64,000 nucleotides of DNA. Origin: Brevibacterium sp. S111 (GTDB lineage: Bacteria > Actinomycetota > Actinomycetes > Actinomycetales > Brevibacteriaceae). This document shows positions 2,931 through 23,841 of this stretch, piece by piece. The notes under the pieces were generated by a model, which did not search any database, was not told the DNA's origin, and worked only from the letters and a program-made list of their open reading frames with translations. Both the position numbers and the translations under genes were made by a program. Each line of letters starts with the position of its first letter. Within the stretch, counting starts at the first letter, position 1. The stretch is from contig NZ_RHFH01000007.1 in assembly GCF_004745075.1 (NCBI RefSeq), positions 186,001 through 250,000 of the forward strand, written 5' to 3'.

Positions 2931-3731
2931 TCAGCCCCCGGAGCTGTCGTCGGCAGCCTGCGTCTTCTTCTGTTTGCGGTATTCCTTGGCGAAGCTGAAG
3001 ACGAAGATGCCGACGATGAGCGCCAGGGTCAGCCACAGCGCGTACTTGTCGATGACCTTGAGGACGTCGACGGCGGTCTCGCCGAGCTGGTAGCCCAGCG
3101 CGGTCCAGATGAGGGTGAAGACCACGCAGCCGAGGAGGTCGGCGACGAGGAAGAGGGACAGACGCATCCGCGTCCATCCGGCGGCGAGGTAGACGAGTGT
3201 GCCGGGAATGCCCGGGCAGCGGGAGATGACGGTCATGAGGAAGAGCGCCCAGTTCGGGATCTTCTTCAGCTGGTTGATGCGTTTGAGCTGGCGTTCGTTC
3301 TGCGCGAAGAGCCGCAGGACCCCGTCACCCCAGCGGCGGCCGGCCAGCCAGAACGCCCAATCGAGTTTCGCCATGCCGATGAATCCGGCGCCGATGACCA
3401 GCCACAGCGGGATCTCGCCGACGCGGGCATAGGCGGCCGCGGCGACGATCGAGGTCTTCGCTCCGTTGATGAACTCTTGGGCGACCGGGGCGTGGACGAG
3501 CATCCAGGGGCGAAACGGCATGAGCCCGAGATAGATGAGCGGGACGCCGATGATGATGAACAGCAACAGCTTGTCCAGGCCCTGGGCTTTGCCCTTCCAG
3601 GGTTTGATCGCGGCCCAGGGGTTCTCCGTGGGAGAGTCTGATGACTCCTGTGCGCTCTCCGATTCCTCTGGCTCTTCGCCACCGTGAGGGATGGGCTCGG
3701 CATCCTCACGGGGGATGCGTTCGTCGCTCAT
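2931..3731 (-). CDS. DedA/VTT-domain membrane protein
   Basis: 266 residues: an acidic, proline-rich cytosolic N-terminus (1-45), then a VTT (SNARE-associated) membrane domain with hydrophobic stretches at about 55-75, 105-130, 165-190, 205-225 and 235-255. The re-entrant region contains RCPGIPGTLVYLAAG, matching the conserved F/SRxxPxxxG segment of the DedA family, whose members act as phospholipid flippases or affect membrane energetics. The start has an RBS (CAGGAG). It is convergent with the quinate genes (16 bp gap) and has no obvious functional link to its neighbours. Confidence 0.82.
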   Translation of the reverse strand: MSDERIPREDAEPIPHGGEEPEESESAQESSDSPTENPWAAIKPWKGKAQGLDKLLLFIIIGVPLIYLGLMPFRPWMLVHAPVAQEFINGAKTSIVAAAAYARVGEIPLWLVIGAGFIGMAKLDWAFWLAGRRWGDGVLRLFAQNERQLKRINQLKKIPNWALFLMTVISRCPGIPGTLVYLAAGWTRMRLSLFLVADLLGCVVFTLIWTALGYQLGETAVDVLKVIDKYALWLTLALIVGIFVFSFAKEYRKQKKTQAADDSSGG

Positions 3732-18621: not shown

Positions 18622-19788
18622 GTGCCCAATCCCAGAAATCACCCCGTCTGTGGTGTATGTGCAAACAAGCTCGTCAAGAATGGCAAAACCGGTGCCGGAC
18701 GCACCAGGTGGCGGTGCAAACACTGCGGCTGTTCAGCGATTCAGAAGCGCACCGATTCGGCGAAGAAGGCAGACTTCAACAGCTTCATCGCATGGTTGAC
18801 CAGCACGCAGCCACGAGGCGATTTCGCTTCCAGCACTCGTACCTTCACGCGAAAGATTCAATGGTGCTGGAACGTAACCCCCAGGGTGGTCCTGACAGGC
18901 GAGATCCATGACCAGATCATGCTCGACGGCACCTACTTCAACGGTTGGTGCGTGCTCATCGCCTACACCGGCACTCACGTCATCGACTGGCAATGGTGCG
19001 ACCAGGAGAAGAACGCGTCCTGGACAGCCCTCATCAGCCGCATCCCCGCCCCGGTGGCTGCGATCGTCGATGGCAACGGACCATTGACGACAACGATCAA
19101 GCGACTCTGGCCGACCACCCGTATCCAACGGTGTCACTTCCACATCCGACAGGCCGCACATCGGTACCTGACCATGCGGCCTGTCCTGCCGGCGAACAAG
19201 GAACTCCTCGGCCTGTTCAAGATGCTGCCGAAGGTCACCAGCCTCGACGAAGCCGCGAAGTGGACAGGCGCATTCACGTCCTGGGAAGCGAAATGGGAGT
19301 CGTTCCTCAAACACCGCACCCAGGTGCGGTCAGGAACACCCCGACCGGCACACGTGAAGCCGGGACAGCGCTGGTGGTACACGCATCTTCGGACCCGTCG
19401 AGCCCACAACCTGCTGACAGGACTCCTCCGCGACCGGCAACTGTTCACGTGGCTAGAACTAGCCGAAGACGACTACACGATCGCGAAGACTACGAACCCA
19501 TTAGAGGGCGGCCCGAACAAAGCGATCAAGGACTTCCTCCGAGCCCATCGAGGACTGAACATCGATCATGCCCGCCGAGGAGTCGACTGGCTGTTGTATC
19601 TGCGCACCGAGGCACCCAAGGACCCGTGGTCGTTCGTTACTCCACGAGCGTGGACACCACCGCGCAGCGTCCCGAATGTGGTGAAACCCGACACGGGCCG
19701 AGAGGAGACGAATCTTCTCTACGGGACGGGATTCAGCGTCGAGGATGGCAATGGGATCCAGAAGGGCTGGGGCGGCAGAACCCGGTGA
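18622..19788 (+). CDS. IS1249-like transposase (DDE, MULE-type)
   Basis: 388 residues. An N-terminal zinc ribbon (CGVCANKLVKNGKT ... WRCKHCGC) precedes a DDE nuclease with Asp in LDGTYFNGW, Asp in IVDGNGPLTTTIK and Glu in NPLEGGPNKAIKDFLRAHRG; CHFHIRQAAHRYLT is the C/H region typical of IS256/MULE enzymes. GTG 18622 is used as start, so that the protein begins just before the zinc ribbon. The frame is intact between the terminal repeats. Confidence 0.92.
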   Translation: MPNPRNHPVCGVCANKLVKNGKTGAGRTRWRCKHCGCSAIQKRTDSAKKADFNSFIAWLTSTQPRGDFASSTRTFTRKIQWCWNVTPRVVLTGEIHDQIMLDGTYFNGWCVLIAYTGTHVIDWQWCDQEKNASWTALISRIPAPVAAIVDGNGPLTTTIKRLWPTTRIQRCHFHIRQAAHRYLTMRPVLPANKELLGLFKMLPKVTSLDEAAKWTGAFTSWEAKWESFLKHRTQVRSGTPRPAHVKPGQRWWYTHLRTRRAHNLLTGLLRDRQLFTWLELAEDDYTIAKTTNPLEGGPNKAIKDFLRAHRGLNIDHARRGVDWLLYLRTEAPKDPWSFVTPRAWTPPRSVPNVVKPDTGREETNLLYGTGFSVEDGNGIQKGWGGRTR

Positions 19789-19955: not shown

Positions 19956-20029
<74 letters not shown>

Positions 20030-21081: not shown

Positions 21082-21256
21082 GAGAGTTCCTCCTCGTATC
21101 GGTCACTCGCGACTGCGGGTCGCAGACACGAATCACCAGCAAGTTTAATAGCCGCCACTGTGAGCTCGGGGAGCGAACCCTGACCGTCGGACAAAAGCCC
21201 GGCTGTGATCTGGGTCCTGGTCACCGCGCACGCCGGCGGACTAGACTGCCTTGACG

Positions 21257-21844
21257 ATGACACAGCGACCCTTCCACCGCCCCGTTCCCCTCGCCGACCT
21301 CGACTCCGTCGGTGCCTCCGACGATCCTGTAGCCCGGTCCGAAACCTCGCACGCGACCGCCGCGCTGCTGCTCGGCGACGCCGACGGCAACCGCGACGAG
21401 GCAGCCACCCGACGGTTCATCGAACTCGCCGACGACATCGGTTTCGAAATCATCGCCGAGATGTGGTCGGCTGCCCCAGCCGTCTCAGCGCCCGGCGCCC
21501 TGTGGCGTCTCTACGCATTGCGCGAATGGATCACGTCTGCACCCCGCGACCTGTCCGAGATGTTCGCCGACGGACAGCGCAGAGTCACTGACGGCATCGG
21601 ATACGACGAGATCCTCGCCGGCGTCGAACTGCCCGCCGGCCCTGATGAGGTGGCGCGGGCGATCGACGAGATCCTCGCCGGAGCTTTCCGCGGCGACGTC
21701 GTCATCGCCTTGCTGCGCGCCGCCGCGTTCGTCGCCATCTGTGCCGCCGGCACGGACGACAACGACGTCAGCGCTCGACTGAGCCGACTCTCCCAGGATC
21801 TCTCCGACGCGGCCGTCGCTCACCGCCGAGGCGGCCTCGACTGA
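21257..21844 (+). CDS. Conserved actinobacterial hypothetical protein
   Basis: 195 residues, acidic, alpha-helical, no signal peptide or membrane segment. Blocks VGASDDPVARSETSHATAAL and ALWRLYALREWI are reminiscent of a small actinobacterial family of unknown function. TAGACT (21242-21247) lies 9 nt before the ATG and there is no RBS; an in-frame TTG at 21251 would add two residues. No functional hint from neighbours. Confidence 0.7.
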   Translation: MTQRPFHRPVPLADLDSVGASDDPVARSETSHATAALLLGDADGNRDEAATRRFIELADDIGFEIIAEMWSAAPAVSAPGALWRLYALREWITSAPRDLSEMFADGQRRVTDGIGYDEILAGVELPAGPDEVARAIDEILAGAFRGDVVIALLRAAAFVAICAAGTDDNDVSARLSRLSQDLSDAAVAHRRGGLD

Positions 21845-22002
21845 CCGTGTGAACACGAACCCAGCCCCGCCGAGGCTACCCAGTCCGGCCGCGCCGACGC
21901 GCCCCCGGTCCGGCCGGCGCCCGGCCCCGGCCCTGCCGATATTCCCACGTGCCCCCGAAGTCAACTGTGAGATTCTCAACGAACCAACAGCCGCCTCGGC
22001 GG

Positions 22003-22030
22003 TGGACTCATGCGTGTGAACGAGTATCGT
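22003..22030 (+). promoter_or_regulatory. Probable promoter of structured RNA / DUF47-pit transcript
   Basis: TGGACT (22003-22008), 16-bp spacer, TATCGT (22025-22030). Transcription would begin near 22037, exactly at the first hairpin of the candidate RNA. Confidence 0.5.
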
Positions 22031-22034
22031 AGGG

Positions 22035-22139
22035 GGTGGCCTTCGGGCCACCGGACGCTGGATCGCTGAAGCCCCGGGCTCCAAATTCAGCCGCTTCGAG
22101 CGGCCTTCCGCCGAGAGGCGCTCTCGGTTCAGCGTCCGG
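22035..22139 (+). ncRNA. Candidate branched structured RNA upstream of DUF47-pit
   Basis: The 359-bp gap 21845-22203 holds a dense set of complementary segments. A UUCG-capped hairpin GGTGGCC/GGCCACC (22035-22052) comes first. Then a 10-bp closing helix CCGGACGCTG (22051-22060) / CAGCGTCCGG (22130-22139) encloses GCTGAA (22065-22070)/TTCAGC (22086-22091), GCCGCT-TCG-AGCGGC (22090-22104, overlapping slightly) and CCGAGAG-GCG-CTCTCGG (22110-22126). The segment CGCTGAA can alternatively pair with TTCAGCG at 22128-22134, so two exclusive folds exist. It is not a known riboswitch I recognise. It ends about 65 nt before the DUF47 start, so it may be a leader regulating phosphate uptake or an independent small RNA. 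Confidence 0.5.
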
Positions 22140-22203
22140 CACATATCATTGAGGCATCATGCATATTCGTCCGGCTCGTCCGGGCCCCGGGCAGGAGGAG
22201 CGC

Positions 22204-22824
22204 ATGCGGCTCAAGCGAGTACCGCAGGACACTGTCTTCTATGAGCGGCTGTCCGCTCTCGTCTCACAGATGCGGCAATGCAACTTGGTGCTCGCCGAAC
22301 TCTCCGGCATCGAAATCAGCGAACGTCGCGACGTGGCCGATCGTCTCCGCGAGATCGGGGACAGAGCCGATGAGGACATGGGCGCGATGCTGCGGGCGCT
22401 GCGCGAGAACTACATCACTCCATTCGACCGCAATGACCTCTACCTGCTCAGCCACCACATGCGCGACATCTGCCACCGTCTGCACGGGGTCGGATTCGTC
22501 CTCGCTTCGGAAGCCTTCGACCCGTTGCCGTCCGGCGTGCCCGAGACCTTGGCGGTGCTGTCGAACCAGACCGACCACACCTCGCGGATGATCACCCGCA
22601 TGCCGGGCAAACTCGACCAGTGGGACTACGTCGACGCGATCAACCGGCTGACCTACCAAGTCGAGACCCTGCAGTGGCGGATGTCGGATGCGGTGCCGAA
22701 CTCCAAACGCGGACTCACGTACATGGCGGCCGTGTCCCAGCTCGGGCAGGCATTCGTCCGGGCCGCTCACGGGTTCACGGAGCTCGGCAAGGTCGTCGCG
22801 GCCATCGCGATCAAGGAGTCGTAG
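22204..22824 (+). CDS. DUF47/PhoU-like phosphate transport regulator
   Basis: 206 residues, all-helical DUF47 (PhoU-related) protein: DTVFYERLSALVSQM near the N-terminus, DMGAMLRALRENYITPFDRNDLYLLSHHMRDI (about 60-90) and a C-terminal helix ending in AIAIKES. AGGAGGAG just before ATG 22204 fixes the start. It is immediately upstream of the Pit permease; DUF47 proteins are usual partners of Pit transporters and are thought to control their activity or coupling to phosphate status. Confidence 0.88.
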   Translation: MRLKRVPQDTVFYERLSALVSQMRQCNLVLAELSGIEISERRDVADRLREIGDRADEDMGAMLRALRENYITPFDRNDLYLLSHHMRDICHRLHGVGFVLASEAFDPLPSGVPETLAVLSNQTDHTSRMITRMPGKLDQWDYVDAINRLTYQVETLQWRMSDAVPNSKRGLTYMAAVSQLGQAFVRAAHGFTELGKVVAAIAIKES

Positions 22825-22827
22825 TCC

Positions 22828-23841
22828 GTGGAGCTGCTTTTGGTGGCCGTCATCGTCGCCGGGGTGATCTTCGCCGGCTCGAACGGCTTCCATGACGCTG
22901 CGCTGACGATCGGCAATGCCGTCGTCGGTCGGGCCCTCAACCCGAAGTGGGCACTGGGCCTGGCCGTGGTCTTCAACTTCATCGGGGCGCTGCTCGGCGA
23001 GGGCATCGCCATCGTCGTGGCGAACCAGATCGTGCTCTTCTCCGGTTCCGCCGACCTCATTCTCACCTGTCTGCTCGTCGCGTTCGTGGCCGCGACGATC
23101 TGGAGTCTCTTCACCTACTTCCTGGCGCTGCCGGTGTCCTCGACGCACTGTCTCATCGGCGGACTGCTCGGTGCCGGAATCGTGTTCGGTTTCTCCGTCA
23201 ACACCGGTGAGGCGATGGACTCCGTCGTGTGGCCGCTGCTGCTCTCACCCGTTCTCGGGTTCATCCTCGCGTGGGCGTTGACCCTCGTGCTGTCGAAGTT
23301 CCTCGCCTCCGTTCCGCCGAAACCGCTGTTTCGCGGCGCGCGCATGGTCGACTCAGTGCTCACGGCATCCCTGTCGCTCGTCCACGGAGTCCAGGATGCG
23401 CAGAAGGTCGCGGCCCTGGTCATGGTCGGCATCCTCGCGGTCGAGGCCACCCCGCACGACGGCCTGTCCATCGTCGAGATCTCTTGGCCCGTGCGCCTCC
23501 TCATTGCCGCGGCCCTGGCACTGGGCACCGGGCTGAGCGGGTGGCGGGTGGTCCAGACCCTGTCAGTGCGGATGGTCCGGCTCGACCCGCTCAAATCCGC
23601 CATCGCCGATGGTGCCGCCTCGATCCTCATGTACACCGCGGCTCTGGTCATGCGCGTGCCCGTGTCGCTGACCTTCGTCCTGGGCTCGTCGATCCTCGGC
23701 ACCCAATACGCCGGACGCAAGGGCCACGCCCGAGCCCGCTACTTCCTGCCGATGTTCGGCGTGTGGCTGCTGACGATCCCGGCCGCAGCGCTGTTGGCGC
23801 TGGGCCTGGGAGGGATCGTCAAAGCGGCTGCAGGAATCTGA
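22828..23841 (+). CDS. pit: Low-affinity inorganic phosphate transporter, PiT family
   Basis: 337 residues, about 10 membrane segments in two inverted halves. PiT signatures: SNGFHDAALTIGNAVVGRALNP (about 15-36), PVSSTHCLIGGLLGAG (about 106) and the repeat SLSLVHGVQDAQKVAALV (about 185). GTG start 4 nt after the DUF47 stop, so co-transcribed. Imports phosphate (often as metal-phosphate) with H+; complements the Pst system encoded at 29.3-33.6 kb. Confidence 0.92.
   Translation: MELLLVAVIVAGVIFAGSNGFHDAALTIGNAVVGRALNPKWALGLAVVFNFIGALLGEGIAIVVANQIVLFSGSADLILTCLLVAFVAATIWSLFTYFLALPVSSTHCLIGGLLGAGIVFGFSVNTGEAMDSVVWPLLLSPVLGFILAWALTLVLSKFLASVPPKPLFRGARMVDSVLTASLSLVHGVQDAQKVAALVMVGILAVEATPHDGLSIVEISWPVRLLIAAALALGTGLSGWRVVQTLSVRMVRLDPLKSAIADGAASILMYTAALVMRVPVSLTFVLGSSILGTQYAGRKGHARARYFLPMFGVWLLTIPAAALLALGLGGIVKAAAGI

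Follow-up and report, generated by a model that had tools for sequence, protein, structure and literature searches.

Positions 22035-22139 on the forward strand of the window, the stretch of 64,000 nucleotides of Brevibacterium sp. S111 DNA that was analysed as a whole, hold one copy of an RNA of about 95 nt. Its 12-bp closing helix encloses two hairpins and a junction rich in C, GCCCCGGGCTCCA. This RNA is almost certainly encoded by a conserved gene, belonging to a small RNA gene family spread through the class Actinomycetes, as judged from the comparison of its relatives. The window element is probably one copy of an independent small RNA gene, which would be stress-induced in many lineages and would likely act in trans. 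An independent small RNA had been one of two proposals of an earlier sequence-only reading of the window, and it is the one that the comparison bears out: the closing helix covaries, the hairpins and the junction are near-invariant, the gene has its own promoter, terminator-like hairpins follow part of the copies and the neighbouring genes change, which argues for a separate gene and against a switch of the adjoining operon.

The promoter TGGACT-16-TATCGT (22003-22030, + strand), of housekeeping type, is in place as that reading had described it, with TGGACT at 22003-22008 and TATCGT at 22025-22030; a stricter consensus promoter scan of the window gave no site at the element. TGGACT is present also in the loci L006, L014, L018 and L020, and TTTACT in L022 and L023. 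The predicted transcript start falls at P0, the UUCG-capped 5′ hairpin that had been claimed and was found at 22035-22052 (+). P0 is optional: among the Brevibacterium copies its stem is kept with changed letters (as seen by eye, uncounted), and in many copies elsewhere the -10 motif directly abuts P1. The closing helix P1 (+) pairs 22053-22064 with 22126-22137 and shows two-sided changes in the alignments, so that the helix first proposed is real and covarying, its length being 12 bp and not 10 bp. Of the three hairpins thought to lie within it two were recovered and the third is unsupported. The junction strand J1/3 (22065-22089, +), with invariant alignment columns and the near-invariant GCCCCGGGCTCCA at 22071-22083, leads into the hairpin P3, GCCGC-UUCGA-GCGGC (22090-22104, +), in which 100% of cells are paired in alignments of both 43 and 64 sequences, and P3 is followed by P4, CGCC-GAGA-GGCG (22109-22120, +), with 100% of cells paired in the 64 sequences. 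In folding energy the window element is ordinary, with z -1.72 and 11 of 200 shuffles as stable.

The evidence for the fold comes from two alignments. The first was built without structure and contains 43 distinct sequences (44 were extracted and L055 was dropped as doubtful). The second comprises 64 distinct sequences including more distant families; it was fitted to the model structure, so its pair counts lean towards the model, and L055 and the long-armed L085 were left out of the search that fed it. Covariation across homologous loci, named beforehand as a check, was found in the closing helix, where compensatory two-sided changes affect 9 of 11 pairs among the 43 sequences and 11 of 11 modelled pairs among the 64; for the whole structure the numbers of such pairs are 9 and 12, respectively. 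Within P1, P3 and P4 taken together, 99.2% of cells are standard pairs in the 43-sequence alignment, with 82 two-sided cells versus 21.7 in shuffles, and 98.8% of cells are paired in the 64-sequence alignment. When partners were slid, pairing fell to 32-43% (32-41% in the 43-sequence set). P1 alone has 98.5% of cells paired among the 43 sequences. In the 64 sequences, one of the five P3 pairs is two-sided (in 16 of 64) and the other four are invariant, whereas in P4 three of four pairs are invariant and one varies on one side; since these pairs do not covary, covariation is uninformative for P4 and for four pairs of P3. Long invariant blocks run through the junction and both inner hairpins of the 43-copy alignment, and CCCCGGG or CCCCCGGG occurs at match positions 11-60 in 155 of 158 copies, being missing there from L132, L177 and L192. 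A mini-hairpin around CCCCGGG is possible: in the 140 copies with the motif its outer pair is G-C in 92, G-U in 32, A-U in 6 and non-standard in 10.

The sequence-only reading had also seen in the element two mutually exclusive folds, as CGCTGAA could pair with either of two TTCAGC copies, which do occur in the window at 22086-22091 and 22128-22133. The first alternative pairing is formed in 73.9% of cells (shuffles 69.9) and the second in 72.0% (shuffles 69.3), against the 98.5% of the closing helix. Among 500 shuffles, 2 reach the first pairing in cells paired and 9 in covariation score, and none reaches the second in either measure; two-sided pairs (161 and 63 of 500) and pair types (357 and 374 of 500) are no better than in shuffles. 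The alternative pairings are only slightly over shuffles and far under the closing helix, and the two-state switch was rejected: on the alignments, two conserved exclusive folds have no support.

In a BLAST search with positions 21940-22240 against 59 relatives 55 matched, which is an underestimate, as G052 was matched by the first covariance model and G040 and G058 by the second. The part shared outside Brevibacterium in this search is approximately 22050-22138, with 22064-22127 common to most. The first covariance model matched 29 of 396 genomes of the phylum, all within one class, and gave no match in about 358 genomes of other classes (a number estimated from listing order). The second found the RNA in 236 of 394 genomes of the class and in 77 of 137 genera, mostly as one copy per genome among the matches listed. 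In the family of genome G446 the RNA was found in 75 of 151 genomes. Loss or divergence appears to be common, since 158 of the 394 class genomes and 76 of the 151 G446-family genomes gave no match. The core form of mycobacteria and nocardiae was collected as 53 stretches from named Mycobacterium, Mycolicibacterium and Nocardia records, and the model matches 53 of 53, L177 weakly. Paired nearby copies were noticed at L129:2886-2979 and 3068-3161 and at G922:C53:125613-125799, and two stretches each came from Nocardia nova, N. aobensis and N. africana. A longer-armed sister type of 112-121 nt, with extended P3, a CCCCCGGGCTCA-like junction and the same P4, is represented by L091:8882-8998 (-) and L223-L234; its hosts are one Streptomyces-like genome and 11 genomes of the G446 family.

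The copies were then inspected for promoters, those with incomplete flanks or identical letters being excluded (109 of 119 copies used in one set, 158 of 172 in the other). Among the 109 distinct copies the hexamer TANNNT precedes P1 at 1-13 nt in 67, at 14-26 nt in 18, at 27-39 nt in 7 and at 40-52 nt in none, and GGAA[TC]-N15..19-GTT is present in 42, with a mean of 0.39 and a maximum of 3 in 100 shuffles. In the set of 158, of which 49 come from a single pattern search for the mycobacterial/nocardial form so that sampling is uneven, GGAAT/C-N17..19-GTT lies within 70 nt in 89 and TANNNT at 3-30 nt before P1 in 86; 25 copies have both promoter types, 8 neither and 150 at least one. The 89 comprise GGAAT with spacer 18 (68 copies), GGAAT with 19 (10), GGAAC with 18 (9) and GGAAT with 17 (2); spacer 18 is thus found in 77 of 89, and GGAAT with N18 or N19 in 78 of 158. 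The SigR consensus has been given as GGAAT-N18-19-GTT in the available part of PMC9205884, and the family as a whole has promoters of this form, whereas the window copy and its genus do not. By group, the SigR-type promoter occurs in 47 of 49 named Mycolicibacterium/Nocardia copies, 11 of 12 Streptomyces-like copies and 31 of 74 of the rest. GGAAY-N-GTT within 70 nt was found in none of the 23 distinct Brevibacterium copies, all 23 of which have TANNNT at 3-30 nt before the closing helix; because of this the link to stress does not apply to the window copy. The window genome carries a SigH/SigR-type sigma gene scoring over the family cut-off. A later check of 20 further G446-family copies (8 ordinary ones from the upper match list and 12 longer-armed) gave the SigR-type promoter in 20 of 20, located 9-12 nt before P1, with spacer 18 in 19 and 17 in one. 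The longer-armed type accounts for 12 of 12 here, and L091 has GGAAC-N18-GTT; since the rate in the G446 family was already high, this check bears mainly on the longer-armed type and less on the class as a whole. SigR/SigH-type control is probable, on these motifs, in the lineages with the matching promoter. Mycobacterial SigE-type factors have a near-identical promoter.

We lean towards the view that the RNA is a non-coding output of the SigR/SigH thiol-stress regulon, from Streptomyces to Mycolicibacterium/Nocardia and in both types, which reprograms translation or transcription, Brevibacterium and some relatives having moved to housekeeping control. The gene would be transcribed by itself into an RNA of about 95-140 nt that acts in trans and whose level, in many lineages, would rise once SigR/SigH is released by disulfide stress. 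Its C-rich junction CCCCGGGCUCCA would pair with G-rich ribosome-binding sites and lower the translation of some mRNAs, the RNA being the repressing arm of the SigR response, and the stiff hairpins may protect or present the junction, or bind protein. In Brevibacterium the RNA would have been retained with a housekeeping-type promoter ahead of DUF47-Pit. In enterobacteria RybB, MicA and MicL are sigmaE-dependent repressor sRNAs. Like them, the present RNA would be controlled by an ECF-type stress sigma factor and is proposed as the repressing arm of a regulon; it differs from them in fold and lineage.

Within this scheme the action by pairing with mRNA is put forward tentatively, and a protein-binding role is nearly as likely. 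By the latter reading, which we regard as a serious though lesser possibility, the invariant junction and the two loops would be bound by a putative partner (a protein, the ribosome or RNA polymerase), and the RNA would serve as a decoy or scaffold in place of pairing with mRNA. The stems of P3 and P4 hardly vary, although paired substitutions could have kept them intact, and large parts of the junction and loops are conserved class-wide, both of which fit a bound partner. Nor are long perfect complements in excess: a search of 23 genomes for the 12-nt sequence exactly complementary to the junction gave 24 sites, of which the RNA gene itself accounts for 17 and other places for 7, with 13 for the reversed control, and in the window genome the sequence is present only in the RNA gene itself. 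However, C-rich stretches are common in mycobacterial sRNAs, according to the available part of PMC4109619, and fit pairing too. In single-sequence folding the CCCCGGG stretch is partly paired, the mean unpaired probability ranging from 0.15 to 0.89 over 12 positions in 153 copies.

The second proposal of the sequence-only reading, a phosphate- or metal-responsive leader, would make the RNA the 5′ end of the Brevibacterium DUF47-Pit mRNA, and is unlikely. The neighbour in question is a DUF47 (PhoU-like) gene (22204-22824, +) outside the RNA, followed by a Pit/PHO4 phosphate transporter gene (22828-23841, +; PF01384, E 5e-54). The likely DUF47 start is ATG 22204, with AGGAGGA before it, so the spacing of about 65 nt from the helix end stands. 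The longest open reading frame, from 22159, matches PF01865 at E 5e-4 and 19.9 bits, under the cut-off of 24.4; its start is probably spurious, and ATG 22204 is favoured because of its ribosome-binding site and because the upstream ATG is out of frame in L023. Directly before this ribosome-binding site, GGGCCCCGGGC (22181-22201) resembles the junction motif of the RNA, by chance or as a pairing site.

Within the genus the arrangement is what a leader would predict: DUF47 and Pit follow the RNA in 37 of 37 copies, close to the start codon, and on the + strand of the window no terminator-like site is listed after the RNA, between it and DUF47. In Brevibacterium itself transcription may read through into DUF47-Pit. 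The upstream neighbour, a gene for an unnamed 197-aa protein (21251-21844, +) with no Pfam or NCBIfam match, is kept in 34 of these 37 copies and lies upstream on the same strand in 11 of 18 others. Outside the genus the association loosens. Of the 18 copies from other families 4 have a detected DUF47, 7 a Pit downstream (which follows also in L137) and 11 neither gene, by one-sequence tblastn of the fetched DNA, which a divergent DUF47 may escape and for which some stretches were short (L055 has only about 0.3 kb downstream). By the usual test of a riboswitch or leader, then, the RNA is not kept ahead of the same genes across lineages. At 31 loci, picked for diversity and not at random, the two nearest genes per side include a member of the 197-aa family at 14 loci, and DUF47 and Pit at 4. 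Other copies adjoin an aldo-keto reductase gene (L090, L096), a metallophosphatase gene (L123, L126, L128), or WhiB with a carboxyltransferase (L131) or pirin (L181), and in the Streptomyces-like L086 the RNA lies between HelD-type and malic enzyme genes, both matches being under their models' cut-offs. A cis element is improbable as the general role because the neighbour genes change so often, and the leader was rejected as a general function on that account.

In L137 a terminator-like 13-bp hairpin with a T-run separates the RNA from DUF47, which also speaks against a leader. Hairpins of at least 8 contiguous pairs occur within 80 nt downstream of 61 of 158 copies; a stretch 200 nt beyond has them in 18 of 154, and ten shuffles gave 15.5 on average and 21 at most. 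Many of the downstream hairpins have at least 12 pairs, and some a T-run. In the window TATCAT (22144-22149, +), a weak candidate for the -10 of a separate DUF47-Pit promoter, follows the RNA; TACAAT stands at its place in L014, L018 and L020, and L013 and L023 lack it. The two-fold switch is not conserved. Promoter motifs of their own in 150 and terminator-like hairpins in 61 of the 158 copies argue for an independent gene.

A conserved DNA element or repeat in place of an RNA is very improbable: the strong conservation of core letters with a CCCGGG palindrome, and a near-symmetric fold owing to which the opposite strand also scores weakly (25.7 versus 88.4 bits in L048), would suit it, but the copies are mostly single in a genome among the matches listed, are preceded by promoters and followed by terminator-like hairpins, and were judged not to be a DNA repeat on account of G-U pairs specific to one strand (one pair is U-G in 21 of the 43 sequences) and compensatory changes.

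The small RNA belongs to a family without an Rfam entry and for which no published description was found. The sequence-only reading had recognised no known riboswitch class, and in agreement with this no Rfam 15 family reached its gathering score at the element in the scan of the window, which gave one tRNA only. A 601-base stretch searched at E up to 10 gave two chance matches, 11 relatives at E up to 1 gave one unrelated weak match, and seven long loci gave two tRNAs only. Elsewhere in the window a gene weakly matching a MULE transposase (18622-19788, +) lies close to a tRNA gene (19956-20028, -). In the literature, limited to open-licence papers, no described RNA family like this one was found, and no paper contained two of five sequence words of the RNA.

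Among known actinobacterial sRNAs, 6C RNA is similar in being structured, of like size and C-rich in parts. According to the available part of PMC8388888, 6C consists of two stem-loops that both carry at least six C. The window RNA has no such stem-loops: a run of 4-5 C is placed in its junction, its hairpin loops are UUCGA and GAGA, and it has no Rfam match. Ms1, a 6S-related RNA that attaches to core RNA polymerase according to the accessible parts of PMC9130861 and PMC4191392, is a widespread actinobacterial sRNA as well; the present RNA is a short three-way junction, and the missing Rfam match speaks against its being an Ms1 or 6S-like RNA. A further one is scr2952, an expressed sRNA of Streptomyces coelicolor that is said to be in Rfam (PMC8388888, part available) and by its name adjoins SCO2952. 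The HelD proteins listed in PMC10719064 include SCO2952, SCO2951 is given as malic enzyme in PMC7494193, and the Streptomyces-like copy in L086 lies between genes of these two types. The sRNA scr2952 may be the same transcript as the Streptomyces-like copies, yet the paper puts scr2952 in Rfam and no Rfam family matches those copies that were searched. SCO2951 and SCO2952 are not mentioned in PMC4681348, nor 2951, 2952 and sigR in PMC3765725; scr2952 is not among the six sRNAs named in the available part of PMC10771440, on sigmaE; the part of PMC11678152 at hand treats conserved intergenic regions and does not name the present RNA region; and the word whiB is absent from PMC3388012. Were scr2952 the same transcript, expression of the RNA would be shown.

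To our knowledge few trans-acting actinobacterial RNAs have a known inducer. As for RNAs linked to SigR/SigH in print, the open-licence papers, some available in part, yielded only the mycobacterial sRNA ncRv13596A, with a predicted SigH link (PMC4109619, in part), and SigH-type promoters before 44 transcript starts of Corynebacterium glutamicum (PMC4046766, in part). The available portion of PMC4109619 also discusses the missing Hfq of mycobacteria. The family described here would fill a gap in Rfam. Being conserved and having a predicted inducer, the RNA can be tested directly in laboratory strains, and it provides a way into RNA regulation in bacteria lacking Hfq.
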